From positions 1 through 64,000 of the IMG/VR virus record IMGVR_UViG_3300042566_000478: DNA of 64,000 nt, one strand, 5' to 3'. Within the stretch, counting starts at the first letter, position 1, and every line of letters starts with the position of its first letter. Below are positions 1 to 64,000 of the stretch, one piece after another. The translations under genes were made by a program, and so were the position numbers. The stretch is from a virus. The notes beneath the pieces were generated by a model. It was not told where the DNA came from, did not search any database, and saw nothing but the letters and a program-made list of their open reading frames with translations.

Positions 1-181
1 AGACACAGCACTACCCCGTCTGCATCGCTCTACGAGGCTCTGGATGGGCAATCCATGCCTACTTCTGGGTCTATGGCTGGGGCATGAATCGGTATCGGGG
101 ACTAGGTGGAGGCTTTACCCCATGTCACGCCTGCTGGTAGCAACTATTCGCTGGCACAGCACCAGAACGCTCCAGATGCTC
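1..181. other. Left window edge, no supported gene
   Basis: No reading frame here has a start, a ribosome binding site and a protein-like composition. One minus-strand frame stays open to the window edge, but I see no start for it. The stretch may hold part of a gene that continues outside the window. Confidence 0.3.
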
Positions 182-532
182 CTACACGCTCCAGACCGCT
201 ACTGGTTCACCATTGAGCGTTACCGACTCCAGAACACGCTCACGCATTCCTAGTGCGTACTCCAGCGACTCCAGATGCTCCTGTATTCCCTCCATGATGA
301 GGAGATGCTCAATGGGTTCGCTTGGGGCGAATTGTGCAATGCGTGTGGCGTATCTGGCGAGACTCACGAGCACCATCTGGGCATCGTGGCGTTGCTGTTC
401 CGTGTATGTGTCCATGCGATGTACGAGCATTCTTCGGTATCTGGATGTAAAGAGCCTGGGCGAAATCGGCTTTAGCGGCGAGATGAAATCATCAATGAAA
501 TTGGGCTCAATTCGCATGACATCGGAATGCAC
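182..532 (-). CDS. Hypothetical protein, about 110 aa
   Basis: I do not recognise the family. The product looks globular, helical and mildly acidic, with no membrane segment. The frame opens with GTG at 532; an in-frame ATG a few codons later (product MRIEPNFIDD) is an equally good start, since neither has a clear Shine-Dalgarno sequence. It lies downstream of the terminator at 637-672, so it would need its own promoter, and I do not see one. This is the least certain of the longer genes. Confidence 0.45.
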   Translation of the reverse strand: MHSDVMRIEPNFIDDFISPLKPISPRLFTSRYRRMLVHRMDTYTEQQRHDAQMVLVSLARYATRIAQFAPSEPIEHLLIMEGIQEHLESLEYALGMRERVLESVTLNGEPVAVWSV

Positions 533-636
533 CTGTCACGAGTGTTTACGCGAAGTTTCGCTTACTCATCATCCATCTGCATTCATTCCAGAGGCTTAGA
601 AGGGCTCATATCGCCTGTAAATCTGGGCATAAATGC

Positions 637-672
637 AAAAAACCCCGATACCCACTCATCTGGGTATCGGGG
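637..672 (-). terminator. Rho-independent terminator after the DUF6011 gene
   Basis: A perfect 11-bp stem (643-653 with 662-672) has an 8-nt loop and is followed on the minus strand by six T residues. It lies just after the stop of the gene at 692-1510 and should end that transcript. Confidence 0.9.
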
Positions 673-691
673 CTCGTGCAGAGCGATTGAC

Positions 692-1510
692 TCAGTATCC
701 ACCCTCCGCACACTTCGCACCCATGCCACGCTTGCGTGATTCATCATCGGTCAGGATGCGATTGCAATGGAAGCACCTGCCGAGATTCTGGGCGAATTGC
801 ATCTGGGCTTCATCCCATTGGGCTGAGTCCATTGCTTCAATCGCATCCATCACACGCTTCGCTTCGGTGAGTGACATGACTGGCGAATTGCTGGTGTCCT
901 CGTGGCTGAATGCTCCACCAATGATTCGCTTCAGAACATAAATCGTTCCCGACTTCCGCCTGCTCTGCACGAATCCATAGAAATCCAAATCGTTGTTGCC
1001 CGTGTGCGATGGCAATGCGAAGTAAGCATCACCATCCAAATCTGCACACGCTTCAGCGATGAACTTCTCAACACGCTTCGCAAGAATTGATGAAGGCTTC
1101 GCAGGCTCAATGCACTCACCCTTGTGATGCCAAGTAGACCAACCACCATTGCTCAACACGGCGAGTCCACTCATGTAAGCGACATCATGTCCGCAGAGTT
1201 CGCATGACTTCGCATACTTGTTTTCAATGATGCGTGTCATACCAGTTGTGCCTGCATCAACAATGTGTGAGCAATCAAATGAGAATGACACTTCAGCATT
1301 CTTTGGTGAGATGACATCAACAGGCTTGTCCTTCAATTCTGAAATCAATTTGCTCGCCTGTGACTTGGTGATATTTGCATTCTTGGATTCAATCCACGAC
1401 TTCGCAGATTCAATCGTTGGCTCAATGCCAAACAACGATGCTCGCTGTGACATGAGTGTGAGCAGGAACTTCATCTGCGCTGGAGTGATTGGTTCGGTGG
1501 ATACTGACAT
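692..1510 (-). CDS. DUF6011-type zinc-binding protein
   Basis: A 272-aa soluble protein. The C-terminal 25 residues (CFHCNRILTDDESRKRGMG, then KCA) match the DUF6011 pattern CxxCxRxLTDxxSxxxGxGxxC, a probable treble-clef zinc site common in phage and actinobacterial proteins of unknown role. A second CxxC (SCELCGHDV) lies mid-protein. The N-terminus has two short repeats of the type TPAQMKFLLTLM and TKSQASKLISEL, typical of small helical modules. The start has a strong GAGGAGG site. It is a single-gene unit with its own leader motif upstream and a terminator downstream. The biological role is unknown. Confidence 0.8.
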   Translation of the reverse strand: MSVSTEPITPAQMKFLLTLMSQRASLFGIEPTIESAKSWIESKNANITKSQASKLISELKDKPVDVISPKNAEVSFSFDCSHIVDAGTTGMTRIIENKYAKSCELCGHDVAYMSGLAVLSNGGWSTWHHKGECIEPAKPSSILAKRVEKFIAEACADLDGDAYFALPSHTGNNDLDFYGFVQSRRKSGTIYVLKRIIGGAFSHEDTSNSPVMSLTEAKRVMDAIEAMDSAQWDEAQMQFAQNLGRCFHCNRILTDDESRKRGMGAKCAEGGY

Positions 1511-1540
1511 GGTGACCTCCTCTGGTCGTTTGGGTTACTT

Positions 1541-1553
1541 GAACATTACAGAC
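1541..1553 (-). promoter_or_regulatory. Leader motif GTCTGTAATGTTC
   Basis: One of five close copies of GTCTGTAATGTYC that sit about 30-60 nt upstream of a start codon. TAATGT fits the TANNNT pattern of an actinobacterial -10 box, but no clear -35 box is visible. It could be a phage promoter or an activator or repressor site. It lies in the 69-nt gap between two genes. Confidence 0.5.
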
Positions 1554-1579
1554 ATTTGGGGCGAATGTGGTGCTGGGTA

Positions 1580-3067
1580 TTAGCCCTCCCATCCGTAGGA
1601 CTCCAGAACCAACATGGCAACGGCTTTGCGCTCATCATCCAGCAGGTCATCTGCCTCGCCATCCAGAACGCTGGACAAGATTCGGTTCTTCATCATGATG
1701 ATTTGAATCATGCGCTCATCAATCGTTGAATGCTCCTCAATCGCACTCAACATGATGTGCGAAACGACATCACGCTTCTGTCCGATTCTCTGCAAACGGT
1801 CTTCGCATTGCAGAAGGTCTGCTGATGTCCAAGGCAACGATGCGCTCACATGATGTCGTGCTGATGTGAGTGTGAGTCCAGTTCCCGATGCAATGATGTT
1901 GCCAACCAACACTCGTGCTGTTCCGTTCTGGAATGCATCAACACTTGCCATCTTCGCTGAGTCATTCATGCCCCCAACAACTTGTACTGCATTCACATCT
2001 GCGAATGCATCCATGTAACGCTTCGCCTCCTCTTTGAATGCACAAGTGATGAACACCTGCTCATCGTTGTCCAGAAGTTCACGCACATAAGCAACAACGC
2101 CATTCACCTTGCCAAGTGCTGACAACTTGCGAAGTTCATTGATGCGAATCAATGCTTCTGCTCGCTCAACATTGTTCGCCTTCTCCTGACCTTTGGTGAT
2201 GCGAATCCACTCGTAGAGATTTGCTTCGGCGTAGCGATACAACTTCTCGTACTTCTCCTCCATCTCCATCGCAACTTCCATACGACCCTTGTTCGGCAAT
2301 TCCAGAACATCGGAACGCTTCATGCGAAGCATGAATGAGCCCACGAGAACATCGTGCAATTCGTTCAAGCGTTGCGCTCCACGAGTGCCATAGTTGTCAA
2401 TGCGTGGTGCATAGCGAGCCATGTATCCACGAATGCCACCTTCAAATGCACCTTGTTGCTCCAGACCATTGATGACCGACAACAATTCCATTGGGCGATT
2501 GATGAGTGGCGTTCCCGACATCATCACTCGGATTCCAGACAATGGAATTGATTGCGAAATATCAATCACGGCTTGCGAACGCTTTGCTCGCTTGCCACCC
2601 TTGATGCGCTGGCATTCATCCACGATGATTCCCTTCACATGACCCTTCAACAGATTCTTGTAACCATCTGCCGATGTGTCACCCATGATGAGTACATCAA
2701 CATCTGGCAATGACTTGATTCCCTGCTTCACAGGGTTAGTACCCGTGATGGTATGCACACTCAACTGCGGAGCGAAGCGTGAGAACTCACGCTTGAATTG
2801 CAATCGCATTGTCGGTGGGCAAACAATCAATACTGGGCGCATTCCTGCTTGAACACTTGATTGCGAAATCGCAACAGCAGTTGGTGACTTGCCTGTTCCC
2901 ATCTCCATCGCAAGCAACACTCGCTGACGCTCCAATGCAAACTTGGTTGCTTCAACTTGATGTGGCATCAATGGCAATGCAGTTTCTTGAACAGCGAAGT
3001 TCAACTTGCTTGGTGCATCATTCAAAATTGACATGAAGCCTTGAAGTGCATCTGACTGGGTTTTCAT
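1580..3067 (-). CDS. SNF2/DEAD-like superfamily 2 helicase
   Basis: A 495-aa ATPase with the SF2/SNF2 order of motifs: Walker A in MEMGTGKSPTAVAIS, motif II as VDECQR, motif III as MSGTP, and motifs V/VI ending in QCEDRLQRIGQKRD. SNF2-like proteins translocate on double-stranded DNA; in phages they are linked to replication, recombination or exclusion functions. The frame is open up to 3241, but the ATG at 3067 has an ideal AGGAGG site four bases away and lies after the leader motif at 3125-3137, so I start it there. This is the first of two SNF2-type helicases in the window; the other (32149-33693) belongs to the replication block. Confidence 0.88.
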   Translation of the reverse strand: MKTQSDALQGFMSILNDAPSKLNFAVQETALPLMPHQVEATKFALERQRVLLAMEMGTGKSPTAVAISQSSVQAGMRPVLIVCPPTMRLQFKREFSRFAPQLSVHTITGTNPVKQGIKSLPDVDVLIMGDTSADGYKNLLKGHVKGIIVDECQRIKGGKRAKRSQAVIDISQSIPLSGIRVMMSGTPLINRPMELLSVINGLEQQGAFEGGIRGYMARYAPRIDNYGTRGAQRLNELHDVLVGSFMLRMKRSDVLELPNKGRMEVAMEMEEKYEKLYRYAEANLYEWIRITKGQEKANNVERAEALIRINELRKLSALGKVNGVVAYVRELLDNDEQVFITCAFKEEAKRYMDAFADVNAVQVVGGMNDSAKMASVDAFQNGTARVLVGNIIASGTGLTLTSARHHVSASLPWTSADLLQCEDRLQRIGQKRDVVSHIMLSAIEEHSTIDERMIQIIMMKNRILSSVLDGEADDLLDDERKAVAMLVLESYGWEG

Positions 3068-3124
3068 ATTTCCTCCTGTGGAATTGGTTGGGTTCAGCGT
3101 AGCCAGTTTGGAATGGATTCGGCA

Positions 3125-3137
3125 GGACATTACAGAC
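3125..3137 (-). promoter_or_regulatory. Leader motif GTCTGTAATGTCC
   Basis: A close copy of the recurrent leader motif, preceded by a run of eight A residues on the minus strand and 57 nt upstream of the helicase start. Promoter function is inferred from position and repetition. Confidence 0.5.
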
Positions 3138-3146
3138 TTTTTTTTA

Positions 3147-3207
3147 GAGCCCCAGAATGCCAGAAGCCCCGACTCCACAGGGGTTCTGGAGTCAGGGCTC
3201 TGGGCTC
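3147..3207 (-). terminator. Nested stem-loop between operons
   Basis: The inner stem 3166-3176/3188-3198 has 11 pairs including one wobble. An outer stem pairs 3147-3156 with 3199-3207. It lies directly after the stop of the gene at 3222. No T-tract follows, so it is a weaker terminator or a processing structure; the leader motif begins right after it. Confidence 0.6.
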
Positions 3208-3221
3208 GGCTTTGCTTCGGG

Positions 3222-3791
3222 CTACTGGTATCGCACCTCATCCCACATGGCTACCTGCATGATGCGATTCCCAGCCTCTGGTGAGAAGAAAAAGTGATTG
3301 GTCTGCATTCCCAGCCTCCATTGGCGAAGTACTGAGTCATCGGTGAGTGACAGCATCTTCACAGCACCAACGATGTCACGGCGTGACAATTCAGCCATAG
3401 TGCAGGTCGTACCAACTGTGTGACCTGACATTGGTTCACCTACCCAAAGTCTCACGAAATCTTCCCAGAACGAAACTGGATGCGAATCTTCTGCGTACTT
3501 GAACACATCTGTGAACGACACATAAGTGAACAGTTCTTGATTGTGGAAATGAGGAACATTAGTAGGCAGAGTGTTGAAGCGTGATGACAACACAGCCTTC
3601 ACGAGTGGGTCACAGAATCGCTGTGGTTCTCCTGCGAAGTCATTCATCGCTTCAATGACTCCACACTCAGAGCAAATCTCGGTCATGTTGTCTACTCGTG
3701 AGATTGCACCTGCATACATTCCTGCGTGTTCACGATTCGGAATTGGTGAATCGCATCGTGGGCAATCTTTGATTTCATTTTGAATTGACAT
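3222..3791 (-). CDS. Zinc-ribbon protein, hypothetical
   Basis: A 189-aa protein. Residues about 9-50 form a phage-type zinc ribbon: CPRCDSPIP near the start and CSECG some 30 residues later, joined by the segment GAISRVDNMTEI that is common in actinophage small proteins. The rest is helical with no motif I can name. The open frame runs to 3923, but ATG 3791 has a GGAG site and lies a few bases from the upstream stop (3793). It is the second gene of a two-gene operon driven by the promoter at 4100-4129. Confidence 0.78.
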   Translation of the reverse strand: MSIQNEIKDCPRCDSPIPNREHAGMYAGAISRVDNMTEICSECGVIEAMNDFAGEPQRFCDPLVKAVLSSRFNTLPTNVPHFHNQELFTYVSFTDVFKYAEDSHPVSFWEDFVRLWVGEPMSGHTVGTTCTMAELSRRDIVGAVKMLSLTDDSVLRQWRLGMQTNHFFFSPEAGNRIMQVAMWDEVRYQ

Positions 3792-3792
3792 T

Positions 3793-4071
3793 TCAGAATG
3801 TCTCCTTCGTGATTGTGATTGTGTTTTCAAATGATTCTGTTTCAACAGAGATGTTGGTGATGTCTGCAAAGAACTCACCAATCGCTTGTGCTTGCTTTGC
3901 CATTGCAATGAAATGTTCTTCAACCCATTTGAAGTTGTCAGAAGTGTTCATTGTCTTTGCATCTTCACGGTACTTCTCCGATGCGTAACCAAGAATGCGA
4001 ACAAGTGTGTACGCATCAATTACGCAAGCATCTTTTTTGGTATCTGGGATTTCTACTTTTGCAAGTCTCAT
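3793..4071 (-). CDS. Hypothetical protein, 92 aa
   Basis: Not recognised. It is a small soluble protein, mostly helical in the middle and threonine-rich at its end (ITITKETF). The frame is open to 4350, but the ATG at 4071 has AAAGGAG seven bases upstream and follows a promoter, so the longer form is unlikely. It is the first gene of a two-gene operon with the zinc-ribbon protein. Confidence 0.72.
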   Translation of the reverse strand: MRLAKVEIPDTKKDACVIDAYTLVRILGYASEKYREDAKTMNTSDNFKWVEEHFIAMAKQAQAIGEFFADITNISVETESFENTITITKETF

Positions 4072-4099
4072 GACTGCTCCTTTGTGTTTGGGTACTGAC

Positions 4100-4129
4100 A
4101 TCATATGTCGGGGGTGTACCAATGTCCAA
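4100..4129 (-). promoter_or_regulatory. Sigma70-like promoter TTGGAC-18-TATGAT
   Basis: On the minus strand TTGGAC (4129-4124), an 18-bp spacer and TATGAT (4105-4100) lie about 30 nt upstream of the start at 4071. This is close to the housekeeping consensus. Confidence 0.65.
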
Positions 4130-6870: not shown

Positions 6871-6872
6871 GT

Positions 6873-11293: not shown

Positions 11294-11728
11294 TTATCCA
11301 GCCTTACCCCGTGTGGCTTTTCCAAGAAACCCGTTTGCTCTGGCAAGCATTACTCGCTTGGCTGATGTGGACTTAGAGATACTGAATGCTTTAGCAACAG
11401 CCTCAATAGGTGACACTCCATAGTTCAATGCATCTTTGTAGATTCGGGCAACTTCTTCCAGAAGGTCATCTGGCAATGTTGCGCCACGCTGTGCGCCTTT
11501 GAGTGTTGCTTTGAAATCTGGTTTAGGAAGAATACTTGCGAGAGCATCTTTTGCTAATTGCACGATTGGTACTCGTCTGTAAATCTCCACCGTAATGGTG
11601 TTGTTATCAACTGATGTAATGCCGACACCTGTGAAGCGAAGCATTCCTCCAATTTTTGTGAACTTGATATTGACATCAAATTGCTGTTTGGTAACTGGGT
11701 CAATCCATGTGAAAGTTTCTGAGTTCAT
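11294..11728 (-). CDS. Putative HTH protein
   Basis: A 144-aa protein. The C-terminal 60 residues (EVARIYKDALNYGVSPIEAV, then AKAFSISKSTSAKRVMLARA) look like the helix-turn-helix module that appears in many actinobacterial proteins with the pattern SPxxAVAxxxxxSxSTAxRxVxxAR. The N-terminal half is beta-rich. A DNA-binding or regulatory role is an inference. It overlaps the WhiB gene by 4 nt and is co-transcribed with it. Confidence 0.7.
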   Translation of the reverse strand: MNSETFTWIDPVTKQQFDVNIKFTKIGGMLRFTGVGITSVDNNTITVEIYRRVPIVQLAKDALASILPKPDFKATLKGAQRGATLPDDLLEEVARIYKDALNYGVSPIEAVAKAFSISKSTSAKRVMLARANGFLGKATRGKAG

Positions 11729-12027
11729 TGTTTGTTCCTCTTACTGCGAAGGTCTTTTCGCTTTCGTGCTGTAGTACCGCCCCAGATACCTAATTCGTAA
11801 TTATCTAATGCAAAGTTGAGACAACTTTGTTTGACAGAGCAGACATTACAAAACTGTTCAATAACAACTTTGTAGTGACCACCAGCAGAACCTTTTTCTG
11901 GGAAGAATTGGTCTGCATCAACTCCTCTGCAAGCACCTTTCTCCATCCATGTCATTGGTTCACGAAGAATAAGTGTTTTGCGAATCTCTTCTTGTTGATT
12001 GATGTAAATGCTCTGTGCTGAACTCAA
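11725..12027 (-). CDS. WhiB-family transcription factor, first copy
   Basis: A 100-aa WhiB protein. It has the four cysteines of the iron-sulphur cluster site (one in GACRGVDADQFF, then CNVC and a further C in SVKQSCLNF), the GIWGGTT turn and a basic tail (ARKRKDLRSKRNK). In actinobacteria such proteins bind a 4Fe-4S cluster and the main sigma factor and change promoter choice; phage copies (such as that of TM4) act against host gene control. The start is probably TTG at 12027, which overlaps the upstream TGA and has a GGAGG site; the in-frame ATG further upstream would overlap the neighbour by 70 nt. Confidence 0.92.
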   Translation of the reverse strand: MSSAQSIYINQQEEIRKTLILREPMTWMEKGACRGVDADQFFPEKGSAGGHYKVVIEQFCNVCSVKQSCLNFALDNYELGIWGGTTARKRKDLRSKRNKQ

Positions 12028-12356
12028 ACTGCTTCCTCCATTTCCCAGAAGCCAAAGCAAGCACCATCGGAATCTAATGTTCCAAAGGTGCATCCTTCTG
12101 GTGCGATTGCATCCATCACATTGAAGAGATGGTCTACGAGAAACATTTCTTGTTCCTCGTCACGGACTGCTTTGGGGTCAATCATTGCGAACAGGACATC
12201 GTTCCAATCGTCAAGGATTGCTTCTTTGATTTTTGGGTCGTGTTCCCCGATGACTGCAAGGAAGGCTTTTGCCAAATCCTCGGTACGGAGTGTTCCTTCA
12301 GAAACGATGGAGTTTACCCACACATCTCCCAAAGGCTTGATGTTTTCGTAAGACAT
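12024..12356 (-). CDS. Hypothetical protein, 110 aa
   Basis: An acidic helical protein of unknown family, directly upstream of and coupled to WhiB. Its ribosome site is inside a small hairpin (see 12361-12377). Confidence 0.72.
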   Translation of the reverse strand: MSYENIKPLGDVWVNSIVSEGTLRTEDLAKAFLAVIGEHDPKIKEAILDDWNDVLFAMIDPKAVRDEEQEMFLVDHLFNVMDAIAPEGCTFGTLDSDGACFGFWEMEEAV

Positions 12357-13193: not shown

Positions 13194-13607
13194 TTAGCCT
13201 TCTAGCAACCTCTGGAGCAGTATTTTTAGGTCAGGAAGTTCTTCTCCTATAAGGGGAATAATATCTACATCTATTTCATTGCGTAATGGGCGTGTTGTGT
13301 GAGCCCAATCACAATCATCACAAGCACAGCCTTGACGAAAGCGTACAACTGTTCCATGTTCAGCAAGATTGTTTGTTGTGTCCTTCTGTAGCGGTACACG
13401 CTCTTGTGGTGTTAGTCCACCCCACACTCCATATGTTTCTTTTCTTCCTATTGAGAGACACTCATCCCAAACAGGGCAGACATTACAAACTTGTTTTGCA
13501 ATGAGATAATTTATTTCTGGAGTTTGTGCGTCAAATGGTGGAAAGAAAATATCTCCATGCATTTTTCTGCACAGAGCATCCGACATCCATTCGGGAGTTT
13601 CTATCAC
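13194..13607 (-). CDS. WhiB-family protein, second copy with C-terminal extension
   Basis: A 137-aa protein. Residues 1-75 are WhiB-like: one cysteine in DALCRKMHGD, then CNVC and a further C in PVWDECLSI, and the turn YGVWGGLTPQER. The last 60 residues are additional and contain HGTVVRFRQGCACDDCDWAH, which looks like a second cysteine cluster. The canonical basic tail is replaced by this segment. The start GTG overlaps the upstream stop (TAGTG). The family is known as iron-sulphur regulators; what the extension does is unknown. Confidence 0.88.
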   Translation of the reverse strand: MIETPEWMSDALCRKMHGDIFFPPFDAQTPEINYLIAKQVCNVCPVWDECLSIGRKETYGVWGGLTPQERVPLQKDTTNNLAEHGTVVRFRQGCACDDCDWAHTTRPLRNEIDVDIIPLIGEELPDLKILLQRLLEG

Positions 13608-14961: not shown

Positions 14962-16398
14962 TCAAGCCTCATCCGATAGGTCAATGACATCCTGATACAT
15001 ACGGTCAGTCTGCTGGGCATTCAACCCACCTCCAGACAGTTGCCTCGTAGATTCCCCGACTGCTTGACCAAATATACGACTAAGCACCCCACTGCTTCCT
15101 CTGGCTTCTACCTCTAAGCGCATGACATCACGAGTATCCGATATGTCTTTGAACTTCTCTACCAAGTTGAACAGGCGTTCTACCTCATTGGACAACGCTG
15201 GGTCAAGACCTTGACCTTCTAGTTCTTCGGCAAAGCGAGCGAACAATACACGGCTCACTTGCATCTCCAGAAGAGCCCTCATCGCAGCCTGTAACTGGTC
15301 TTTAGTTTTGATTTCTACAGGCAACTTGAATCCACATTCTGAGTTCTCCTTGAATGCAGGACATCTGGCACTCAAATAGCAACTATTACATTGTCTGAAA
15401 AGACTACTTTGGTACTGAATTACAGGTACTTTTTCAATACCTATTTCTTCAGATTCTCCTTCTCCTGCAAGGGTTTGCGCTAATGGAGGAGTGTACTGCT
15501 CAATACCCATTACTGGTAGCAATACTTTGTCACCCTCGTGCCTCTTCTCAGACCCCCTAATAGTAATACTTGTACCCCCTGAAACCACATTTGGTGAAGT
15601 AGGCAAATTACTCAAATAGTTACTATTATCTTCATTTTCCGATAGACCTATTTCTTCTTCATCGTTGTCTTCTGATGGGTCATAGACCCCAAAAGCACCC
15701 TGCTCCCATGCTTGCCAAGACTTGATTGCCAACTTCGCAACTTCAGCGTTATCGTCTTGAACTATCTGTTCATAGTCAATTCCTAAACGAATAATGTCTG
15801 CTCGGTGTTTCTTTCGGGCAGAATCTTTTTGCTGTGCTGGGTAACGGCGTAAACCGTGACCATCCCATACTTGTGTTTCCCCGTAGCGAACTGCCGATGT
15901 CCATGAACCAACAAGAACAGAATCCCAAGGAAGGGATTCAATAATCTCTGGCTTTGACGACAAACCAATGAGTTTGGCATCCCACCTCTGAATGAGGTTT
16001 CGTATTCTGGAGATAGTTTTACCGTTTACAGCCTTGTCACTAATCGCAGCCCGACCATATCGCTGGCACAGGTAGGCAAGCCTTTCCATGTCATCTGGGT
16101 CATTCCATACTGGGATGTACCTCTCATTTAGCCATGCACCGTCATAATCAGGTCTTCCTATGATTGCAGTTAGGCTTTCGTAATGCTGGCGAATGAAATC
16201 GTCATAGCGAGTAACATCTTCATCATTCTCGGAAGTGTAAAGAATTACCTCGTTCCCACCGAACATTACAGATAAATCAAGTTCTTTTTTCTTGGGAACA
16301 GCCAAATGAGTCAGATTTATAGCAAAGCGAGTTACACCAGCATTCTGGAGAAGCGACCTGTGGGATGACTTTTCGGCATTAGCAAAGTAAATCTTCAT
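14962..16398 (-). CDS. Large hypothetical protein with cysteine cluster
   Basis: A 478-aa protein. The N-terminal 240 residues look like an alpha/beta domain (MKIYFANAEKSSHRSLLQNA; SWTSAVRYGETQVWDGHGLR) resembling conserved actinophage proteins of unknown function. Residues about 240-340 are acidic and disordered. Then follows a cysteine group (CNSCYLSARCPAFKENSECG), probably zinc binding, and a helical C-terminus (RVLFARFAEELEGQGLDPAL; LEVEARGSSGVLSRIFGQ). It is co-transcribed with the HAD-like and zinc proteins upstream (overlaps of 1-4 nt), so the three may work together. Confidence 0.75.
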   Translation of the reverse strand: MKIYFANAEKSSHRSLLQNAGVTRFAINLTHLAVPKKKELDLSVMFGGNEVILYTSENDEDVTRYDDFIRQHYESLTAIIGRPDYDGAWLNERYIPVWNDPDDMERLAYLCQRYGRAAISDKAVNGKTISRIRNLIQRWDAKLIGLSSKPEIIESLPWDSVLVGSWTSAVRYGETQVWDGHGLRRYPAQQKDSARKKHRADIIRLGIDYEQIVQDDNAEVAKLAIKSWQAWEQGAFGVYDPSEDNDEEEIGLSENEDNSNYLSNLPTSPNVVSGGTSITIRGSEKRHEGDKVLLPVMGIEQYTPPLAQTLAGEGESEEIGIEKVPVIQYQSSLFRQCNSCYLSARCPAFKENSECGFKLPVEIKTKDQLQAAMRALLEMQVSRVLFARFAEELEGQGLDPALSNEVERLFNLVEKFKDISDTRDVMRLEVEARGSSGVLSRIFGQAVGESTRQLSGGGLNAQQTDRMYQDVIDLSDEA

Positions 16399-24352: not shown

Positions 24353-24724
24353 TTATACGTAACCAGCATCCTTGAGCAACTTAAGCATGTCTTCTAACGG
24401 CATAATTGCATAGGATTCACCAATTGCAGCAGCACCTTTTCCTGGTCGCTTTACCACCAGCAAAGGTACTCCACGCTTTAACTTGGAAGCCTGCTCCACA
24501 GTGGCATTGAGCCATTCGCTTAGTTTAAAAGACTTCTGGTTCTTGCATTGGATGGCAATCTCTTTAGGAGGAATGTCACGAGCCTGAACTACTCCGTGAA
24601 TATCCCCAGCATCGTTCTCACCAGCGAGGGCAGTACGGCGAGCATTACAGAAATCTTGCTCCTTGAGGTAGTTGACAATTAAGGTTTCAAACGAAGTGCC
24701 TTTGGCTTTGTGTTTATTTCCCAT
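24353..24724 (-). CDS. Holliday-junction resolvase-like nuclease
   Basis: A 123-aa protein of PD-(D/E)xK type: N-terminal KAKGTSFETLIVNYL, RRTALAGENDAGDIHGV carrying the catalytic aspartate, then the E/Q-x-K like IAIQCKNQKSF motif. This arrangement matches phage Holliday-junction resolvases that cut branched DNA after recombination. The E of ExK appears as Q (IQCKN), which is unusual. It overlaps the upstream gene by 11 nt. Confidence 0.75.
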   Translation of the reverse strand: MGNKHKAKGTSFETLIVNYLKEQDFCNARRTALAGENDAGDIHGVVQARDIPPKEIAIQCKNQKSFKLSEWLNATVEQASKLKRGVPLLVVKRPGKGAAAIGESYAIMPLEDMLKLLKDAGYV

Positions 24725-28210: not shown

Positions 28211-28561
28211 TTATTCTACAGGTGATATTAACGCAATAACTTGGTTTTCTAACATCTTTTGTACGAGAGCCATACCAAATGCTACTAGTACCCCCTTGGA
28301 GCCTTCAAGCATAGCAGGGGGTGGTAATTCTTCATCATCCATTGTTTTGGACAACACCTCAGTAAACCATTCTACTGACTCTTCAATCTCATCATAGATA
28401 CCAAAGTCATGTAGTAATTCCCATTGGTCGTCAATAAGTTGTTCTTCTAATTCCTGTACTTCTTGAGAAGGTGGAGTCATCCCAACACTTTGAGCAATCT
28501 GTTGTCCACCAGGAAAGGAAAGCATCAGGCAAAAGTTTCTCTTTTCTGCAATATCGTTCAT
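28211..28561 (-). CDS. Hypothetical protein, 116 aa
   Basis: An acidic helical protein (QEVQELEEQLIDDQWELLHD; SVEWFTEVLSKTMDDEEL). The ATG at 28561 overlaps the polymerase stop (ATGA) and has AAAGGA; the longer frame is unlikely. Family unknown. Confidence 0.7.
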   Translation of the reverse strand: MNDIAEKRNFCLMLSFPGGQQIAQSVGMTPPSQEVQELEEQLIDDQWELLHDFGIYDEIEESVEWFTEVLSKTMDDEELPPPAMLEGSKGVLVAFGMALVQKMLENQVIALISPVE

Positions 28562-30609
28562 TTTCCTTTTGCCTCCGACCAGTTCGTTGCTGCATGACAA
28601 GACACCTTAAGTGTGACTCCCATAATACTCCTATCGTGGCCCATAGCAGTAACTAGGGTGGACATTGCAGAGTTTTCATCTTCTTCTGGGGCAACTGCAA
28701 CAAGTTCGTCATGTACTTGTACCAGCATCTTGGCATTAGTTCCTACAAAGGCTTTGTTTACGTCAATCATGGCTTGCTTACAAATATCTGCGGCACTTCC
28801 CTGAATGATGGCGTTAATAGCCTGCCGTTGTGCTCGTGACTGTGTGAACGAGTCTTTGGACAAAAGGTCTGGAAGTCTGCGCCTACGACCAGTCAAGGTA
28901 GTTACATACCCAACTCGTGCGGCTTTGGTAATAGCAAGTTGCTTCCAACGTGTCAGTTCTGCAAAACTCTTATAGTAATTATTCAAAATTTCCATAGCAT
29001 GCTCATCGTCAATGCCTGTAGTACGGGCAAGTTTTGCATAACCACCACCGTATGCGGTAAGAAAGTTTACTCCCTTACCAATCTGTCGTTCTTCTGATGA
29101 CACTTCGCCTACGGGTTTCTTAAATACAGCAGCCGCAGTTGCGGCGTGAATGTCCTCGTTGTTTCTAAAAATGCGAAGCAACTGCTGGTCTTGGCTAAAC
29201 ATAGCCATTACTCGGAGTTCAATCTGGTCATAGTCAGCCACAAGCATTGTGTACCCATCTGGTGGAACAAACAAACTACGAATAGTTGAATCTCGTGGGA
29301 TGTTCTGCAAGTTCGGGTTAGACGAAGACAAACGACCAGTTGCGGCTCGGTGCAAGTTAAAAGACGGATGTAACTTACCGTTGTTCAACTTAGGCAAAAG
29401 ACCATCAACATATGTTGACTTCATCTTTTGGATTTCCGCATAGTTCAACAACAGTGGGATTAGTGGATGCTTATCTTTTAACTTCTCCAAAGCCTCGTTG
29501 TCTACAGACGGAGCACCCTTGTTAGTTTTCTTAGTTGGTTTAAGACCAAGCCCACCTGCTCGTTTACCCGTAAACAAATAGGTTTGTTTGTCCTTGTTAG
29601 AGTCTGGGTTAAACCCAGCATAAGAGTTGTCCACAATGTCTAAGAGACACTCTCTAATCTTGTTGTCTAACTCTTTGCGAAGCAGTTTAAGTGAGGCTGT
29701 GTTTACTGTAATGCCCTCATCTTCCATCAGCATGAGTACACGAAGCACTTCCATATCCTGTTTAATTGCAGGCTGGAGTTCTTCATGCATATTAAGTTTT
29801 GCTCGTAACTTTGAGTACAGCATCCATGTCCAACGAGCATCTAAGTGAACGTACTTAGCCGCAGAACTAAAGGGTACTGTGTTAATGACAGCACCAAGTT
29901 TTCCTTCTTTGGCGTAAGCGTCATGCCCACCAAAGTTTTGAGCAATTAAGTTGGTTAACGAAAATGATTGAGAGTTCTCATCTTCCAGATGTTGGAGAAT
30001 CATTGTGTCAACATATGGGCCTGGAGGTAACTCTCCGTAATACTTCTTTATAGAACGAGCGTCAAACTTTACGTTGTGTCCTACCTTTGTAAGTTCACTA
30101 AAGAATATAGGGCGAAGCGCTTCAAACACTTCGTATTTAGATAACTGTTGTGGTGGTTCTGAGTACACGCCAGGAATCACATACTTGGCTTTAGCCATTG
30201 ACTCCTTACCGCTTACAGTTACCTTGCGATATCCAGGTGGTGGAATGGTTGTACCATCACCACGCTCTTCTGGAACAATAATCTCGCCAAGAAGGTGACC
30301 CATTGGAATAGCCCATGAGCGACCATACGTAGCAATCCCAATCCAAAAGACTTCGTTGCGTAACGGGTCTAATGCCAAATCTTTGAGGTAACGCTGGCGA
30401 ATTGCTTCTGTTGATGAAGCGACAATAGAGTCCGTAGGGTTCTTGAGTGTTGCGATGTGGTCTTTGCACTCTTTTGTAAAAAGTGCATTGATATCATCAT
30501 GGCGCTCAATCACCCCACGGGACTCAATGTCAAAGGCGAACTCCCCTGCCTTTGTAACTACCTCAACAAGTTCATGCAACTCTTCAACGGTGTGTACCGT
30601 TTGTTGCAT
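28558..30609 (-). CDS. polA: Family A DNA polymerase (3'-5' exonuclease and polymerase)
   Basis: A 683-aa replicative polymerase of the PolI family without the 5'-3' exonuclease. The proofreading domain shows FDIES near residue 27 and VGHNVKFDARSI; the polymerase domain has motif A DYDQIELRVMAMFS, motif B with RQIGKGVNFLTAYGGG, and motif C VQVHDELV. This is the standard phage form. It is followed by a coupled gene and preceded by the SSB-like gene. Confidence 0.95.
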   Translation of the reverse strand: MQQTVHTVEELHELVEVVTKAGEFAFDIESRGVIERHDDINALFTKECKDHIATLKNPTDSIVASSTEAIRQRYLKDLALDPLRNEVFWIGIATYGRSWAIPMGHLLGEIIVPEERGDGTTIPPPGYRKVTVSGKESMAKAKYVIPGVYSEPPQQLSKYEVFEALRPIFFSELTKVGHNVKFDARSIKKYYGELPPGPYVDTMILQHLEDENSQSFSLTNLIAQNFGGHDAYAKEGKLGAVINTVPFSSAAKYVHLDARWTWMLYSKLRAKLNMHEELQPAIKQDMEVLRVLMLMEDEGITVNTASLKLLRKELDNKIRECLLDIVDNSYAGFNPDSNKDKQTYLFTGKRAGGLGLKPTKKTNKGAPSVDNEALEKLKDKHPLIPLLLNYAEIQKMKSTYVDGLLPKLNNGKLHPSFNLHRAATGRLSSSNPNLQNIPRDSTIRSLFVPPDGYTMLVADYDQIELRVMAMFSQDQQLLRIFRNNEDIHAATAAAVFKKPVGEVSSEERQIGKGVNFLTAYGGGYAKLARTTGIDDEHAMEILNNYYKSFAELTRWKQLAITKAARVGYVTTLTGRRRRLPDLLSKDSFTQSRAQRQAINAIIQGSAADICKQAMIDVNKAFVGTNAKMLVQVHDELVAVAPEEDENSAMSTLVTAMGHDRSIMGVTLKVSCHAATNWSEAKGK

Positions 30610-50809: not shown

Positions 50810-52357
50810 CTAGATATTCGTGGTGACGGTGCTTCCACCAGTCCATTGACTGATGGTGATTACGATGAATTCGGCTGGTGACTGCAATGCAACTCCAACC
50901 TCAATGTTTACTGTTCCGTTTTCAATATCGTTTTGCGTGTTGTTAGTTGAGTTACAACGGACAAAGAATGCTTCCGTTGAAGTACGGCCCTTCAAACCAC
51001 CTGAAGCCCAGAAGGTGTTCAGGAGTGAAGAAACACGCACCGTAAGGTCTGCCCACAAACGCTCATCGTTTGGTTCAAACAAAGCGCTTTGAGTGCTTTC
51101 CTTAAGAAGGTCCTTAAGGTAATTAAGTGAACGGCGAACTGTGATGTACTTCTCAGAAGTATTACGTGCCAAGGTGCGAGAACCATTGATAATTACTCCA
51201 ACGCCTGGAACTACGTTAAAGAGGTTTAATTGGCTATCCTTGTACAAGTTACCTTGTTCGGTTTCTGTAAGGTTTGCTACCAAACCATACACGTTTCGGA
51301 TGTCCAAACTATAGCCAGCAGGTGCTTTAGCAACACCACGGGTTACTTCTGAACGAACCATTGCACCAAGAACCGCACCACCTGGGTAGGTATTGCGGAT
51401 AGCGGCAGCACCAGTTTTTGTTGGGTCAAACATTTTCATTGCTGGACCGTAAACTGCTGCGAAACCAGACTTGGTGTAAGGCTGTACTGCGTCAGCAAGT
51501 GCTTGCTTGTTTGTTGCGTTTAGTGGGGTATCAACAATCAACAACGAGTTTCCACGAGTTGACATCACCGTAATGGCATTGTTAATAATTGTTGATGAGG
51601 TTTGCCCAACAAGGTTAAACAAGAGTCCCGATGTAATGGTTTCGTGACGGGTAAGAGCAGTAGCCCAATCAACGGAATCAATTGCACCCACTCCCTCAGA
51701 ACCGTTGGAGAACGTAGTAGTTGTTACGTAGTCATCAACACCAATACCAGTTACGGTAAGAGTTGCATTGCTAGCCACAGTTGCTACAGTTGAAGCACTA
51801 ACATATGACGAGTAAAGGTCAAGAACGGTTGAAACATAACGGTAGTTAGCAGGGTCAACAGAAAGATTTGACCAGCGTTCTACTTCGCTACCATCAAGTT
51901 TAACTGTCAAAGTAAACAGCGAATTCTTGGTAATCTTCGGTGCTGATGACAGGTCTGTCAGTGTTTCTGTGTCAAAGGTGTAATCAACAGACAAGTCATT
52001 ACCCCAGGTTCCAGGTGATTTGGTAATCAAGAGGATAAGGTTTGCACTACTTCCACCAGTTGGCGTTGCTGTCAAGGCGCTGTAAGCGTATGTTGACGTT
52101 GCATCAATTACACGGGTAACATAGGCTGCTTGACCACCGTTTGCAAAGTAGTGGTAGACAGCATAACCAAGGTCGTAGTTGATGTCTAATGCACCAAACA
52201 AACTGGTGTACTGTGACCATGTAGTCACAAGGGTTGGTGTCGTTGGTCCACGCTCTGCTGTGCCAATAAATGCAGCAGAAGTAGGTCCATTCGCAGTTGT
52301 CAAATTGGTTGCAAACGTACCTTCCTGTACGTAAACTCCTGGGCGTTCGTATGCCAT
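50810..52357 (-). CDS. Tail sheath protein
   Basis: A 515-aa contractile sheath protein: N-terminal MAYERPGVYVQE, domain TSAAFIGTAERGPTTPTLVT, and the conserved C-terminal QSPAEFIVITISQWTGGS. It contracts around the tube for injection. Normal length. Confidence 0.93.
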   Translation of the reverse strand: MAYERPGVYVQEGTFATNLTTANGPTSAAFIGTAERGPTTPTLVTTWSQYTSLFGALDINYDLGYAVYHYFANGGQAAYVTRVIDATSTYAYSALTATPTGGSSANLILLITKSPGTWGNDLSVDYTFDTETLTDLSSAPKITKNSLFTLTVKLDGSEVERWSNLSVDPANYRYVSTVLDLYSSYVSASTVATVASNATLTVTGIGVDDYVTTTTFSNGSEGVGAIDSVDWATALTRHETITSGLLFNLVGQTSSTIINNAITVMSTRGNSLLIVDTPLNATNKQALADAVQPYTKSGFAAVYGPAMKMFDPTKTGAAAIRNTYPGGAVLGAMVRSEVTRGVAKAPAGYSLDIRNVYGLVANLTETEQGNLYKDSQLNLFNVVPGVGVIINGSRTLARNTSEKYITVRRSLNYLKDLLKESTQSALFEPNDERLWADLTVRVSSLLNTFWASGGLKGRTSTEAFFVRCNSTNNTQNDIENGTVNIEVGVALQSPAEFIVITISQWTGGSTVTTNI

Positions 52358-58012: not shown

Positions 58013-59704
58013 TTATTTGTCTTCGTCAGGTATACGGCGCTGGGCGAACCTTGCTCCGTATGCCTTACTAGTCATTTGGTTCATCAATTCCATTTCTACT
58101 GGTGGGATACCAGCACCTGGAAGCACTCCGCCCCCTTGAGGGCTTCCTGCACTAGTTACATTACCATCTCCTGAAGGAGCAGGTTCAAGACCCCCTCCAT
58201 TAGGAAGTAGCCCTGTAGCCATCATTACTGCTTGACCAATTTGAGCACGAATCATATCCAATGCTCCTTGGTCAACAGCGTCATCTCGTAGTTCCTCAAA
58301 GACTTCAATCATCTTCTCATTCGGGAACTCTTCACCTAGGGCTCGTAGTGCGCCCTTCTTAGATTCAATACCCAAAGCCATCTTTGCCTGCACTTCGTTG
58401 AGTTTGATAAGAGCATCAACAGGAAGTGGGTCGGGCCAGTGAATGGTTGTCTTGTATGTATTTGGGTCATTAGGGTCTAACTGTGTGAGCATGTCTGGCT
58501 CAGGCATTGCAGACTGTGACGGGTTATAAATCAACAGTTCAGGAACAAACACAGCACAAGTTTTGATAATGATTTCGTTCAGACGTTCAAGACCCTGTGT
58601 AAAGTGAATCTTCTTCATCTGGTAACGGTTCATCAAAGGCTGGTACTGAATAGCCAAAGCAACACCTGAAGTATTAGATACTGGCTGGAATTGACCAAGA
58701 GCAGTTTCAGGTACGCCAGTGATTTCATGCATTGCTCGTTTAATCATTTGCACGTATTCAATAGCACCAGACATTTCGCCACGTGACTCAAGGTTAAACA
58801 CTTGTGCTTCTTTAGGAAGACCAGCCCAAACCTTCTTAGGACCACGCTCTAGTTGTGAAGCCTTAGCACCAGTGATGATAGTTACTGGGGCAGCGTGGTA
58901 GTTGATGATGTCTGAGATTTCAGTCATCTTCTCGTTGAGTTCACGGTTCAATTGGATAATGTCCCAAATGTCTGACTGACCCCAAGGTGATGAAGTTATT
59001 GTAATGTTCGGAATGTGAACAATTGGAACAACACCAATTGGGTTTTCATACTCATCAATCAACTCATCATTGATAAATTGCTGTACGGTATTGTCCGTAA
59101 GAATTTCAGTAAATGTGTAAACCTGACGAGTTCCTTCTGGCGATGTTCCCCAGAAACGATACTTAAGTTTAAATCTGATTAAGCGCTCACGGTCATGTGG
59201 GTGATACTCAGGGAAACAATGCGCTGGGTTTAGTGGAAGAATGCGGACACGACCTGGGTGCTGTAGCCCAACACCATCAACGTAAGGTTCATCATATGCA
59301 ACTTTTACAAAGCAGTCTCCAGTGATACTTGCAAGTTGCCCCATTTGCCACAACAAATAATGTTTGTTGTTGTGGTTGTCCCACACTTCGTGAAGCAGTT
59401 GTGGAATGATTGCTTCGTTTTGCTCAGGTACTTTAAATTGAATACCTTTACCAAAGCAGAAGTTTGTAATGAAATCCGACATGGTTTTCACATAATTCAT
59501 GGTGACGTTGTTGTCACCCATCTCACGGCGGTGTGACCAGTGATGACCTAGATACCAAGCCCAAGCAGCAGAATACCTGTTGAGTCTTGGTCCATGAACT
59601 TCAAACTCTTCGTCAGCAAGTTCAACCAATCCAAGTGGACTAATCGCTACGGTTAAGTCACTAGATGCCGCCCTATAAGACGGTGACCAAAAATCAACAG
59701 GCAT
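58013..59704 (-). CDS. Portal protein
   Basis: A 563-aa SPP1-type portal: SIL-like VPIVHIPNITITSSPWGQSD, EIMTEI-like NREL-NEKMTEISDIINY, VPETALGQFQPVSNTSGVAL and the C-terminal helical region. It forms the DNA entry ring at the head vertex. An AAAAGG site precedes ATG. Confidence 0.92.
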   Translation of the reverse strand: MPVDFWSPSYRAASSDLTVAISPLGLVELADEEFEVHGPRLNRYSAAWAWYLGHHWSHRREMGDNNVTMNYVKTMSDFITNFCFGKGIQFKVPEQNEAIIPQLLHEVWDNHNNKHYLLWQMGQLASITGDCFVKVAYDEPYVDGVGLQHPGRVRILPLNPAHCFPEYHPHDRERLIRFKLKYRFWGTSPEGTRQVYTFTEILTDNTVQQFINDELIDEYENPIGVVPIVHIPNITITSSPWGQSDIWDIIQLNRELNEKMTEISDIINYHAAPVTIITGAKASQLERGPKKVWAGLPKEAQVFNLESRGEMSGAIEYVQMIKRAMHEITGVPETALGQFQPVSNTSGVALAIQYQPLMNRYQMKKIHFTQGLERLNEIIIKTCAVFVPELLIYNPSQSAMPEPDMLTQLDPNDPNTYKTTIHWPDPLPVDALIKLNEVQAKMALGIESKKGALRALGEEFPNEKMIEVFEELRDDAVDQGALDMIRAQIGQAVMMATGLLPNGGGLEPAPSGDGNVTSAGSPQGGGVLPGAGIPPVEMELMNQMTSKAYGARFAQRRIPDEDK

Positions 59705-62260: not shown

Positions 62261-62289
62261 AGCGTATCCTACCTAAGTAGGTGTGTCAA
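62261..62289 (-). promoter_or_regulatory. Strong promoter TTGACA-17-TACGCT with spacer palindrome
   Basis: On the minus strand TTGACA (62289-62284), 17 bp, TACGCT (62266-62261). The spacer contains CCTAC-CTAA-GTAGG (62268-62281), a possible repressor site. It starts right after the stop of the endolysin and should drive the head and tail operon. Confidence 0.8.
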
Positions 62290-62829
62290 CTACCCCTGAA
62301 AGGAAGCGACAGCCTCTGGAATATTGTCACCACATACGTAGCGCAAGTGCCAAGGCTCAGAGGGAACAACTTCCCATGAGAAGCCAAACTTTTTCACATT
62401 GGCAATCAACCAATTAAGACGTTTTGGCTCTGCGGCGTTAGCCACATCAACGGCGATGCCGAGGTTATGCTGGGACTTACCAGGTGTCGCCAACATTGCC
62501 ATACCCTTTTTCAGATACCAAGTCTTGCCTTCAAATGTTTTGGTGCTTTGACCTGGGATTGGTTCAAGTTGGTAGCGAGTAAGGAATCCTTTTTTCTGTG
62601 TTTCGTAATCACGATATGTGTCACCTGCTGAAGTCGGCTTGAGTTCAACCCCTTCAGCCTTTGCAGCAGCAACCATTGCAGCCCACGCTTTTGCCGCAAT
62701 GTGGTGCATCTTTCCGCCACCTACGGCAGGGACAAGAAGATTTGCTGGCAACTTTCCAGGCTCAATGCCCTTAAGGTCCTTTGGTAATACTACGGGAACA
62801 ATATAATCCCAAGCAACTTTCTTACTCAT
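62290..62829 (-). CDS. M15 (VanY-type) carboxypeptidase endolysin
   Basis: A 179-aa D,D-peptidase: SAGDTYRDYETQKKGF, SQHNLGIAVDVANA and EPWHLRYV hold the zinc and substrate residues of the M15B family. It would cut the peptide part of peptidoglycan at lysis. No separate wall-binding domain is seen. It is next to a holin-like protein and a lipoprotein. ATGA overlap with the upstream gene. Confidence 0.88.
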   Translation of the reverse strand: MSKKVAWDYIVPVVLPKDLKGIEPGKLPANLLVPAVGGGKMHHIAAKAWAAMVAAAKAEGVELKPTSAGDTYRDYETQKKGFLTRYQLEPIPGQSTKTFEGKTWYLKKGMAMLATPGKSQHNLGIAVDVANAAEPKRLNWLIANVKKFGFSWEVVPSEPWHLRYVCGDNIPEAVASFQG

Positions 62830-63113
62830 GCAATCTCCTCATCGTCAGGGATACCATTACCATTTTTATCTTCTGCGTTCCTGCCAGTTGAAATCATCAA
62901 ACCAGCAAGTGTTCCAGTAATGAATGTCGCTACTGAAGAAAGAACGCTAAAGAACATTTTATCATTCTCTGCTTGAGCGCCGATAGGCTGTGTAACAAAC
63001 ACAAGCGCCCAAAGCACCCCGACTGTGGTGATGAGTAGGACAAAACCAAGCATGCATCCGATTACAAACTTCAAACGGGCATCTAGTTCTGCTGAGGTTA
63101 ACCGTGGTTTCAT
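62826..63113 (-). CDS. Holin-like membrane protein
   Basis: A 95-aa protein with two membrane spans (FVIGCMLGFVLLITTVGVLW; MFFSVLSSVATFITGTLAGL) and an acidic calcium-site-like end (DKNGNGIPDDEE). Position next to the endolysin fits a holin. ATGA overlaps on both sides. Confidence 0.75.
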   Translation of the reverse strand: MKPRLTSAELDARLKFVIGCMLGFVLLITTVGVLWALVFVTQPIGAQAENDKMFFSVLSSVATFITGTLAGLMISTGRNAEDKNGNGIPDDEEIA

Positions 63114-63346
63114 GGTGCTGTTGTCTCCTGTGTTGGGATTAGTTCTTCTAATACTGGGTTTACTAAACCTTCCAAAGTTGGGTCAAAACCTAGTAATGTG
63201 TCTGGGCATGCCCCATCTACTTGGCATGCAGGGCGTTGGCACTCAGGCTTTTCCCAGTTTGCTGGGTCTTGGCATTCATAACGGTATTTACCGTCATAGC
63301 CACAACTTGCTAAAAGTATTGCTGAAATAAAGAATAACTTTTTCAT
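63110..63346 (-). CDS. Small lipoprotein
   Basis: A 78-aa protein with a lipoprotein signal (MKKLFFISAILLASCGYDGK) and six more cysteines in the following half. In a lysis module it could be spanin-like or protect against superinfection; not decided. AAGGA before ATG. Confidence 0.75.
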   Translation of the reverse strand: MKKLFFISAILLASCGYDGKYRYECQDPANWEKPECQRPACQVDGACPDTLLGFDPTLEGLVNPVLEELIPTQETTAP

Positions 63347-63561
63347 TTCTTTTCCTTATCCATATGCCAGTCAATGTGTGTGTTCAAACGACCAGCCACT
63401 GCGTCAATACCGCTACGAACTTTGCGAAGTTCGGACATTACGTTTGCGTGGTCTTGACGATTTTCCGTTCTGAATTCTTTGAAGGACTTCAGAAGAAAAC
63501 CGACTCCAGTTCCTATTACGGGTATAGCAGCCGCAATGATGATTGCCCACGCATCGCTCAT
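63343..63561 (-). CDS. Membrane-anchored coiled-coil protein
   Basis: A 72-aa protein with one N-terminal span (DAWAIIIAAAIPVIGTGVGF) and a helical rest (FRTENRQDHANVMSELRKVR), like DUF2746-type proteins of actinophage lysis modules. Confidence 0.72.
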   Translation of the reverse strand: MSDAWAIIIAAAIPVIGTGVGFLLKSFKEFRTENRQDHANVMSELRKVRSGIDAVAGRLNTHIDWHMDKEKK

Positions 63562-63564
63562 AGG

Positions 63565-64000
63565 TCACTCTTTAATTCCAAATTGTTGACCATTGATTTT
63601 ACGGCGAGCATGTACCATACTTGATGCACCTTGTGGGGTGTTATCAATTACTTCTCTAATTTTTTGTCGTTGCAAAACATCTGGAGATGCATACTTTTTA
63701 GGAATACCACCAGTTTGACCGACTGGGATATCAGGGCGAACTGGGCGAACAAAACCTGATTCCGTTGCAGCGCCTTCCATTGCTTTTAACCCTGCTGTGT
63801 GTTTTACAGTCAACCCACCAGTTTGCCCAGCAAATCCACGAGCAGTGTCGTGCATGCGAGCGTCAGTATTGTCTGCATCGTAAAGATAAAATTCTTCTTC
63901 ATTACCATGTGCGTCTTGCATCACCCAGCGTTCTGGTTTTGGTTCATCTTTACCTAACCACAACGCTGCTTGAGTGGTAAGACCAGCATCATGTCGTTGT
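63565..64000 (-). CDS. Partial hypothetical protein, continues past the right edge
   Basis: The frame is open from the window edge to the stop at 63565. A TTG at 63963 is not a convincing start and codons upstream of it are sense (..DAGLTTQAALWLGKDEPKP). The C-terminal part has repeated GQTGG motifs (ARGFAGQTGGLTVKHTAG; VGQTGGIPKKYAS), which suggests a fibre or virion protein. Family unknown. Confidence 0.7.
   Translation of the reverse strand, partial: QRHDAGLTTQAALWLGKDEPKPERWVMQDAHGNEEEFYLYDADNTDARMHDTARGFAGQTGGLTVKHTAGLKAMEGAATESGFVRPVRPDIPVGQTGGIPKKYASPDVLQRQKIREVIDNTPQGASSMVHARRKINGQQFGIKE

Follow-up and report, generated by a model that had tools for sequence, protein, structure and literature searches.

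Viral genomes from which the recognition sites of type II restriction enzymes have been eliminated are already known. In the survey of Rusinov et al. 2018 (PMC6286503), a site is regarded as eliminated when it occurs below 0.1 of expectation. The survey gives elimination in 7.1% of the type II site-genome pairs, complete or almost complete elimination in around one tenth of the viral genomes, and less frequent elimination in temperate phages. The kind of phenomenon described here is therefore known. Its subject is a phage represented by the IMG/VR virus record IMGVR_UViG_3300042566_000478, of which positions 1 to 64,000 were analyzed (the window; all positions refer to this 64,000-nucleotide stretch and its plus strand) and which comprises 91,769 bases in full. 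The phage lacks the palindromic tetramers AGCT, CCGG, GATC, and TCGA, together with many further words. The phage resembles the viruses of the survey in having lost nearly all copies of type II sites under selection, and differs in the 26 motifs eliminated from one genome, five of them tetramers, in the presence of a dpdA-like gene, and in sets of words that switch within its family (PMC6286503). Titles and abstracts of the literature on avoidance or on these phages contained no report of such a phage, which is no proof of absence. Three features look unusual: how many words one genome has lost, their word-by-word turnover among members of one family, and the fact that an integrated prophage shows complete elimination.

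Broad-host-range Streptomyces phages without restriction sites were reportedly described by Cox and Baltz in 1984, where this property was tied to host range and few sites were tested. The likeness lies in actinophage DNA devoid of the sites of host enzymes; the elimination considered here differs in being genome-wide and compared across a family. The Planktophila phages E7 and F5, which encode WhiB and infect low-GC freshwater actinobacteria, share with the window phage the WhiB gene and a guanine-cytosine (GC) content near 45%, and differ in their 39-kb genomes; site avoidance is unmentioned for them in the available text (PMC10202952). Streptomyces phage BRock (Borockvirus) has a portal protein 53% identical to that of the window phage and the same terminase-portal-capsid-sheath order. 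It differs in its many tRNAs, in its host Streptomyces, and in the presence of all five tetramers, which occur in 41.7 kb at 0.69-1.17 of the base-composition expectation. Judged from its genes, the window phage is a distant member of a Borockvirus-like actinophage lineage.

Missing words and their exactness

The sequence-only reading of the window had claimed that no copy of GATC, CCGG, TCGA, or AGCT is present. The program count returned zero for AGCT, CCGG, GATC, and TCGA alike, while base composition predicts 240, 150, 240, and 240 copies and a maximal-order Markov model 224, 59, 177, and 140, respectively. A fifth palindrome, CGCG, which that reading did not list, has a single copy in the window (549..552; base-composition expectation 150). 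The effect was also said to extend over the whole genome, and the four tetramers are indeed absent from the entire 91.8-kb record, in which CGCG occurs only at 549..552. The first-order Markov expectations for the record are 316 for AGCT, 240 for GATC, 201 for TCGA, 140 for CCGG, and 98 for CGCG. Other palindromes are present in the window, again in agreement with the earlier description: CATG 246, GTAC 236, TGCA 340, GCGC 114, and CTAG 79 times, with GGCC depleted to 33 against 150 expected. Equally low non-palindromic tetramers were not found, the lowest being CCCG at 0.33 of the base-composition expectation, and the GC content of 44.1% is close to the 43% estimated by eye.

Amino-acid content and codon usage leave this gap unexplained, since permuting codons among synonymous positions of 117 genes (83,988 bases, 100 shuffles) yields 327±15 copies of AGCT, 250±12 of GATC, 235±14 of TCGA, 117±10 of CCGG, and 136±10 of CGCG, whereas this coding DNA has no copy of any of the five. 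The counts of CATG, GTAC, and TGCA are close to those of the shuffles; ACGT (186 vs. 358) and AATT (398 vs. 572) are lower. The five tetramers and further words lie below 0.1 of expectation at an expectation above 15, a threshold which follows the survey (PMC6286503) and is applied here with the first-order Markov expectation, not with the CB measure of that paper.

A greedy search through about 4,100 patterns, with first-order expectations for the whole record, identified 26 eliminated motifs, including the five four-base palindromes. Some are degenerate and some non-palindromic: 16 are palindromic as written and 10 are not, e.g., CGTCC, CCCGC, and CACGTC. The longer words include (observed/expected) CGTCC 0/84, GKGCMC 0/76, CGACG, which equals CGWCG, 0/58, CCCGC 1/60, GGYRCC 1/54, YGGCCR 0/52, CACGTC 0/33, GAGACC 0/30, GRCGYC 0/29, AACGTT 0/29, CGTCTC 0/22, CCATGG 0/22, and TGCGCA 0/18. 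Within the window, GKGCMC, GGYRCC, GRCGYC, YGGCCR, CGWCG, and CGTCC, among others, have no copy, and in the whole record 0 or 1 each. The same search returned no motif in four dinucleotide shuffles; of three synonymous shuffles, two gave none and the third gave 1. An 80-kb sample of the Terracoccus chromosome contained 1 motif and a 100-kb sample from chromosomes of small-genome actinobacteria 2; phages BRock and pSt2308 gave 2 and 5.

Elimination is confined to the recognized words and spares their near neighbors. The degenerate patterns are exact: CGWCG stands at 0/58 and CGSCG at 57/42, GGYRCC at 1/54 and GGAACC at 37/37, GRCGYC is counted here at 0/35, and AACGTT is missing while TACGTA occurs 15 times against 12 expected; yet GGACCC (8/25) and GGAGCC (7/22) are low. 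Many eliminated words would be the targets of type II enzymes, namely AluI, MboI, TaqI, HpaII, ThaI, Hpy99I, FauI, CfrI, BanI, HgiDI, BsaI, BsmBI, NcoI, and FspI. CCCGC, GAGACC, CGTCTC, and CACGTC are presumably type IIS words.

In sliding counts, the left early-gene segment of the window (1-16000) additionally lacks ACGT (0/43) and nearly lacks GGCC (1/30). Farther to the right, ACGT climbs to ordinary counts, and GGCC is low throughout. The low ACGT of this segment is common to contigs L229-L232; L233 has ACGT at 36/53. This pattern suggests that the segment entered the genome as a module from a lineage that had lost more words.

Turnover of the missing set between relatives

The loss of a single word can be followed base by base between the window phage and its relative G254, which are 82% identical over 54.6 kb aligned. 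None of the 146 aligned GATC sites of G254 is kept in the window phage, while 12 control words are kept at 30-58%; for TCGA, the other avoided word in this comparison, 0 of 10 sites are kept. The GATC losses are synonymous in 93 of 134 scorable cases (69%), compared with 47-71% for the control words. A second relative, G251 (87% identity), has 15 GATC sites against 259 expected, and 8 of the 10 alignable sites read GGTC in the window phage. This fits either a purge that is still incomplete or sites that slowly return once the pressure has eased.

Across the family, the words are gained and lost separately. Loci related to the portal gene number 453 in IMG/VR, of which the best 80 were kept, and the tree comprises 93 portals (62 different): these 80 loci, 10 loci found in records of bacterial genomes, the phages BRock and pSt2308, and the window phage. 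It was built by a quick method, with 13 of its 59 inner branches open and long branches, e.g., that of Terracoccus, placed unsurely. With loci of expectation below 8 or a ratio of 0.12-0.35 left unscored, the rows with the word eliminated and normal are 58 and 33 for AGCT, 18 and 70 for GATC, 55 and 33 for TCGA, 48 and 35 for CCGG, and 43 and 34 for CGCG; the corresponding values are 2 and 90 for ACGT, 3 and 60 for GGCC, 0 and 92 for GTAC, 0 and 93 for CATG, and 0 and 85 for CTAG. The minimum number of state changes on the tree is four for GATC and five for each of AGCT, TCGA, CCGG, and CGCG. Individual genomes illustrate such switching. The five tetramers are gone from G253 and G256 (CGCG counts of 0 and 1), both of which retain CGWCG (57/64 and 28/49), GGYRCC (64/70 and 48/53), and GRCGYC (41/41 and 27/31). 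G254 lacks exactly these three longer words, has nearly lost AGCT, CCGG, and CGCG, has TCGA at 25/205, and carries GATC at the normal level of 234/238. G252 is missing AGCT and GCWGC, and the number of eliminated motifs is 0 in G255 (45% GC), 2 in G545, and seven each in G257 and G258.

An example of such elimination in an integrated element is the prophage of the isolate Terracoccus sp. 273MFTsu3.1 (loci L102-L107). Of its contig, 160 kb were read, and the longest interval without AGCT there spans 828,707-933,193 (104.5 kb), nearly coincides with a CCWGG-free interval (828,221-933,479), and contains a relative of the portal gene. CCGCGG and GGCGCC are missing from all twenty 5-kb bins between 830,000 and 930,000, and the flanks carry AGCT, CCWGG, CCGCGG, and GGCGCC. 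The other four tetramers of the window phage are normal in this prophage, and three tRNA genes lie close to its right end. The motif search returned 24 motifs, many of them A-rich non-palindromes, which the first-order model fits poorly at 67% GC; elimination is claimed for the palindromes and CCWGG only. The borders are sharp and lie in an isolate genome, which argues against a metagenomic artefact and places the trait in the element, not in the chromosome.

The missing set also overlaps with that of G542, a largely unrelated actinophage. Its 44.7-kb record has no match to the portal, although it may be a fragment, and it encodes, by eye, a PolIII-like polymerase. Homologues in the 11 family genomes compared were found for 12 of its 65 open reading frames (ORFs), and nucleotide similarity to 13 family records does not extend beyond some 3 kb of tail-fibre sequence and a single short gene. 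G542 (locus L308) has 25 eliminated motifs, e.g., RCATGY, GGNNCC, CTYRAG, and GTMKAC; it lacks AGCT, GATC, TCGA, CCGG, and ACGT, has GGCC at 2/74, and retains CGCG (30/17 in the 20-kb locus L308). All three five-base words eliminated from the window phage, i.e., CGTCC, CGACG, and CCCGC, are among the nine of G542 (hypergeometric probability 3.8e-6 over 512 words, an approximate value, as one search produced both sets and the words share composition). GKGCMC is eliminated in both, and the tetramers overlap in 4 of 5 (p 0.036). Searches for unrelated WhiB phages mostly returned the same family. The tail-fibre genes of G542 are related to those of the window phage, and two apparent methyltransferase genes were seen by eye.

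Phage lineage and candidate hosts

The genes of the window which bear on its lineage and on the explanations are given below.

1580-3241 and 32149-33693: two separate SNF2-family helicase genes (Pfam)
4802-5866: DUF932 gene
11725..12093 (-): WhiB-like regulator gene (PHROG WhiB, 6e-19)
13194..13607 (-): second WhiB-like regulator gene (PHROG WhiB, 2e-17)
14962..16398 (-): DpdA-like gene (PHROG queuine tRNA-ribosyltransferase, 6e-35)
24353..24724 (-): RusA-like Holliday junction resolvase, a small phage nuclease (PHROG, 4e-25)
28558..30609 (-): family A DNA polymerase gene (Pfam DNA_pol_A, 4e-111), free of the missing tetramers
50810..52357 (-): tail sheath gene (PHROG tail sheath, 2e-41)
58013..59704 (-): SPP1-like portal gene (Pfam SPP1_portal, 6e-33), used for the family tree

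The genes for sheath, baseplate, portal, PolA, RecA, DnaB-type helicase, toprim/primase, and terminase define a contractile-tailed phage. A near-identity (megablast) search of the phage collection with positions 30000-50000 returned no match. The first WhiB gene (11725..12093) is matched by 780 phage records, nearly all of which carry names of actinobacterial hosts; for the second (13194..13607), an alignment of nine sequences shows four invariant cysteines and the WGG motif. Relatives of the portal occur in phages of Streptomyces and on contigs from Nonomuraea, Streptomyces, Actinomadura, Saccharothrix, and Terracoccus. The two WhiB genes and these portal relatives place the host in the Actinomycetota. 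Three of the ten genome matches of the portal, including the closest (71%), lie on contigs of 3-16 kb in metagenome-assembled genomes named after other phyla (Chloroflexi for L085, Proteobacteria for L091, and Armatimonadota for L092); AGCT is absent from L085 and L091. These contigs are probably misbinned phage DNA. A freshwater habitat is assumed for the phage.

The DpdA-like gene has no Pfam match and no PDB match, and no gene of preQ0 synthesis was found among the 47 ORFs scanned of 144 called. It may possibly serve 7-deazaguanine DNA modification. In the available text of one study, phage Orion, which carries dpdA without preQ0 genes, has unmodified DNA, and modified phage DNA resists some enzymes and not others (PMC6884629). 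The gene was found in eliminating relatives and also in loci in which none of the 12 tetramers counted is eliminated (L282, L294, L296, L297, L299, L300, and L302-L307). As the gene occurs with and without eliminated words, DpdA was rejected as a switch of avoidance, and it is no substitute for avoidance. The lack of dpdA in G255 carries no information, as homologues of many genes around it are missing from that contig too. Near the tail-fibre region of L082, a methyltransferase, a PhyH, and a weak glycosyltransferase match (4680-7104) and TauD-like and DUF6065 genes (11017-14056) were seen, which may possibly act in surface or sugar modification.

Small genomes of 1.2-1.5 Mb, whose fetched pieces have 40-50% GC, occur in the class of Terracoccus; size, GC content, and class suggest that they belong to the Nanopelagicales. 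The host is presumably such a small-genome actinobacterium, probably of this order; the small genome G009, with 57% GC, was set aside as a possible host. Restriction-modification (R-M) genes were sought in 161 genomes of the order of G096 and in a class-level sample of 246 genomes. A C5-methyltransferase match is present in 36 of the 161 (33 above the family cut-off), mostly one per genome, and an N6/N4-type match in 14. One C5-methyltransferase (at least 76% identity) recurs in 13 genomes with a varying neighboring gene (loci among L153-L162 and L214-L226). A Sau3AI-like enzyme adjoins it in three, and a fourth genome has the domain on another contig; these four are the only genomes of the 161 with a MutH/Sau3AI domain, and the enzyme of L154 matches Sau3AI at 6.5e-48. 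Of four BglII-like neighbors that were scanned, three exceed the Pfam cut-off and one falls short of it, and two more are assigned by similar sequence only. The third type of neighbor is a small protein, which has no match in Pfam in the two cases scanned and is assigned in one further case by its similar sequence. One methyltransferase beside different enzymes suggests, without proving it, that the shared target may be GATC. An HpaII-type enzyme was found in 2 of the 161 genomes, adjoined by a methyltransferase in both, and NgoPII-like, EcoO109I-like, NgoFVII-like, and MvaI/BcnI-like enzymes are also present in the order. In the chromosome pieces of these candidate hosts, AGCT, GATC, and TCGA are not depleted to the degree seen in the phage. 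In the bacterial pieces L153-L172, GTAC is low (16-41 vs. 72-78 expected per 20 kb) and ACGT usually low too; GTAC is near normal in the window phage, unlike in these chromosomes.

Explanations of the elimination and its meaning

The genome has very probably been purged of many type II recognition sites by point mutations, with each remaining site lowering survival in a host strain that has the matching enzyme. Escape from type II restriction was also the reading proposed from the sequence, and it is strongly supported by the exactness of the degenerate patterns, the switching between lineages, the loss of every aligned GATC, the overlap with G542, and the record-wide extent. We infer that cleavage by host enzymes is the agent and that the cassettes are exchanged. 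Strains of the host order would hold one or a few type II cassettes, differing between strains, and a phage lineage infecting many strains would gain from losing every site of each common specificity, because one site can suffice for cleavage. The missing set would then be the union of the specificities met often. It is proposed that the diversity of cassettes accounts for the breadth of this set, and a change of hosts or of local R-M types for the switching of sets within the family.

Several observations weigh against this explanation. The control words lose as large a proportion of their copies by synonymous changes as GATC does, so that this proportion alone is no sign of selection; the signal is the total loss. 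Direct evidence from WhiB gives the host only to the phylum, and the order was deduced from GC content. The suggestion that the host lineage carries several matching enzymes is supported for GATC and CCGG only, and in this presumed order, where the Sau3AI-like and HpaII-like enzymes are each rare; the TaqI family (TCGA) is represented in 0 of 161 order genomes and 0 of 246 class genomes, and no enzyme for AGCT or CGCG was recognized in the order. The targets which we assume for other enzymes of the order are not eliminated from the window phage (GCSGC, NgoFVII, 52/59; CCWGG, MvaI/BcnI, 112/141; GGCC, NgoPII, 51/197; RGGNCCY, EcoO109I, 11/48). We know of no specificity matching the eliminated words GCACGC, CAGCGG, and GACGGC. 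Finally, two gene clusters, the DUF932 gene and the gene at 87499-87744 of the record, track elimination, each being found for CCGG in 6 of 7 eliminators, for TCGA in 5 of 6, and for CGCG in 6 of 7, and in 0 of 3 others each time. This is perhaps due to the non-eliminating records being fragments or distant.

These two clusters would also suit a phage whose own site-specific nucleases shred host DNA and whose genome spares itself by lacking the sites. Such self-avoidance predicts zero counts as well, and the genome encodes the resolvase and a Cas4-like exonuclease. The 26 motifs would, however, demand many nucleases, and the sole restriction-type match among the 47 ORFs scanned is a ResIII helicase domain on the two SNF2-type helicases. 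Moreover, among 11 genomes, several of them fragments, no gene cluster tracks the elimination of AGCT or GATC, the nearest for GATC being a gene of 73 aa that 4 of 5 eliminators and 1 of the 6 other genomes carry. This explanation is considered improbable. Slightly less improbable, and still far from favored, is another sequence-specific defence in place of type II enzymes, such as restriction glycosylases, type I or III systems, or CRISPR motifs. The 10 non-palindromic motifs would agree with it, although several of them match what we take to be type IIS words. The other 16 are palindromic, and CGACG becomes so when written as CGWCG. The survey reports that type I and IIG sites showed no avoidance (PMC6286503).

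Mutational or compositional bias, i.e., decay of methylated cytosines, CpG loss, or a general dislike of palindromes, would explain why CpG words are common among those missing and why ACGT and AATT are low. AGCT and GATC contain no CpG, however, and CATG, GTAC, and TGCA stay near their shuffled counts. The hundreds of copies in synonymous shuffles, together with G255, which has no eliminated motif at 45% GC, refute bias for the five tetramers, and as a general account it is highly improbable. An artefact of assembly or of a restriction-enzyme library could be suspected in a metagenomic contig. Nevertheless, contigs L002, L003, L004, and L007 agree, L005, L017, and L251 differ in their sets despite the same sample number (3300020172), and the Terracoccus isolate shows the same kind of elimination between normal flanks. 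Such an artefact is refuted and is the least credible of all the explanations.

If the purge by type II restriction is accepted, each missing set might be read as a record of the restriction enzymes in an uncultured host population, including partly undescribed specificities, a proposal which we find as easy to doubt as to believe. Ca. Nanopelagicales are reported as lacking CRISPR-Cas (PMC10202952). If the proposal is true, CGTCC, GKGCMC, and CGWCG would be real specificities of R-M cassettes exchanged among small-genome actinobacteria, and host range would be predictable from how phage sets differ. Viral contigs could then reveal the enzyme repertoires of hosts and help to assign hosts to uncultured phages for which CRISPR offers no trace. 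The GATC purge, traceable base by base between G254 and the window phage, allows the speed of natural restriction pressure to be studied.

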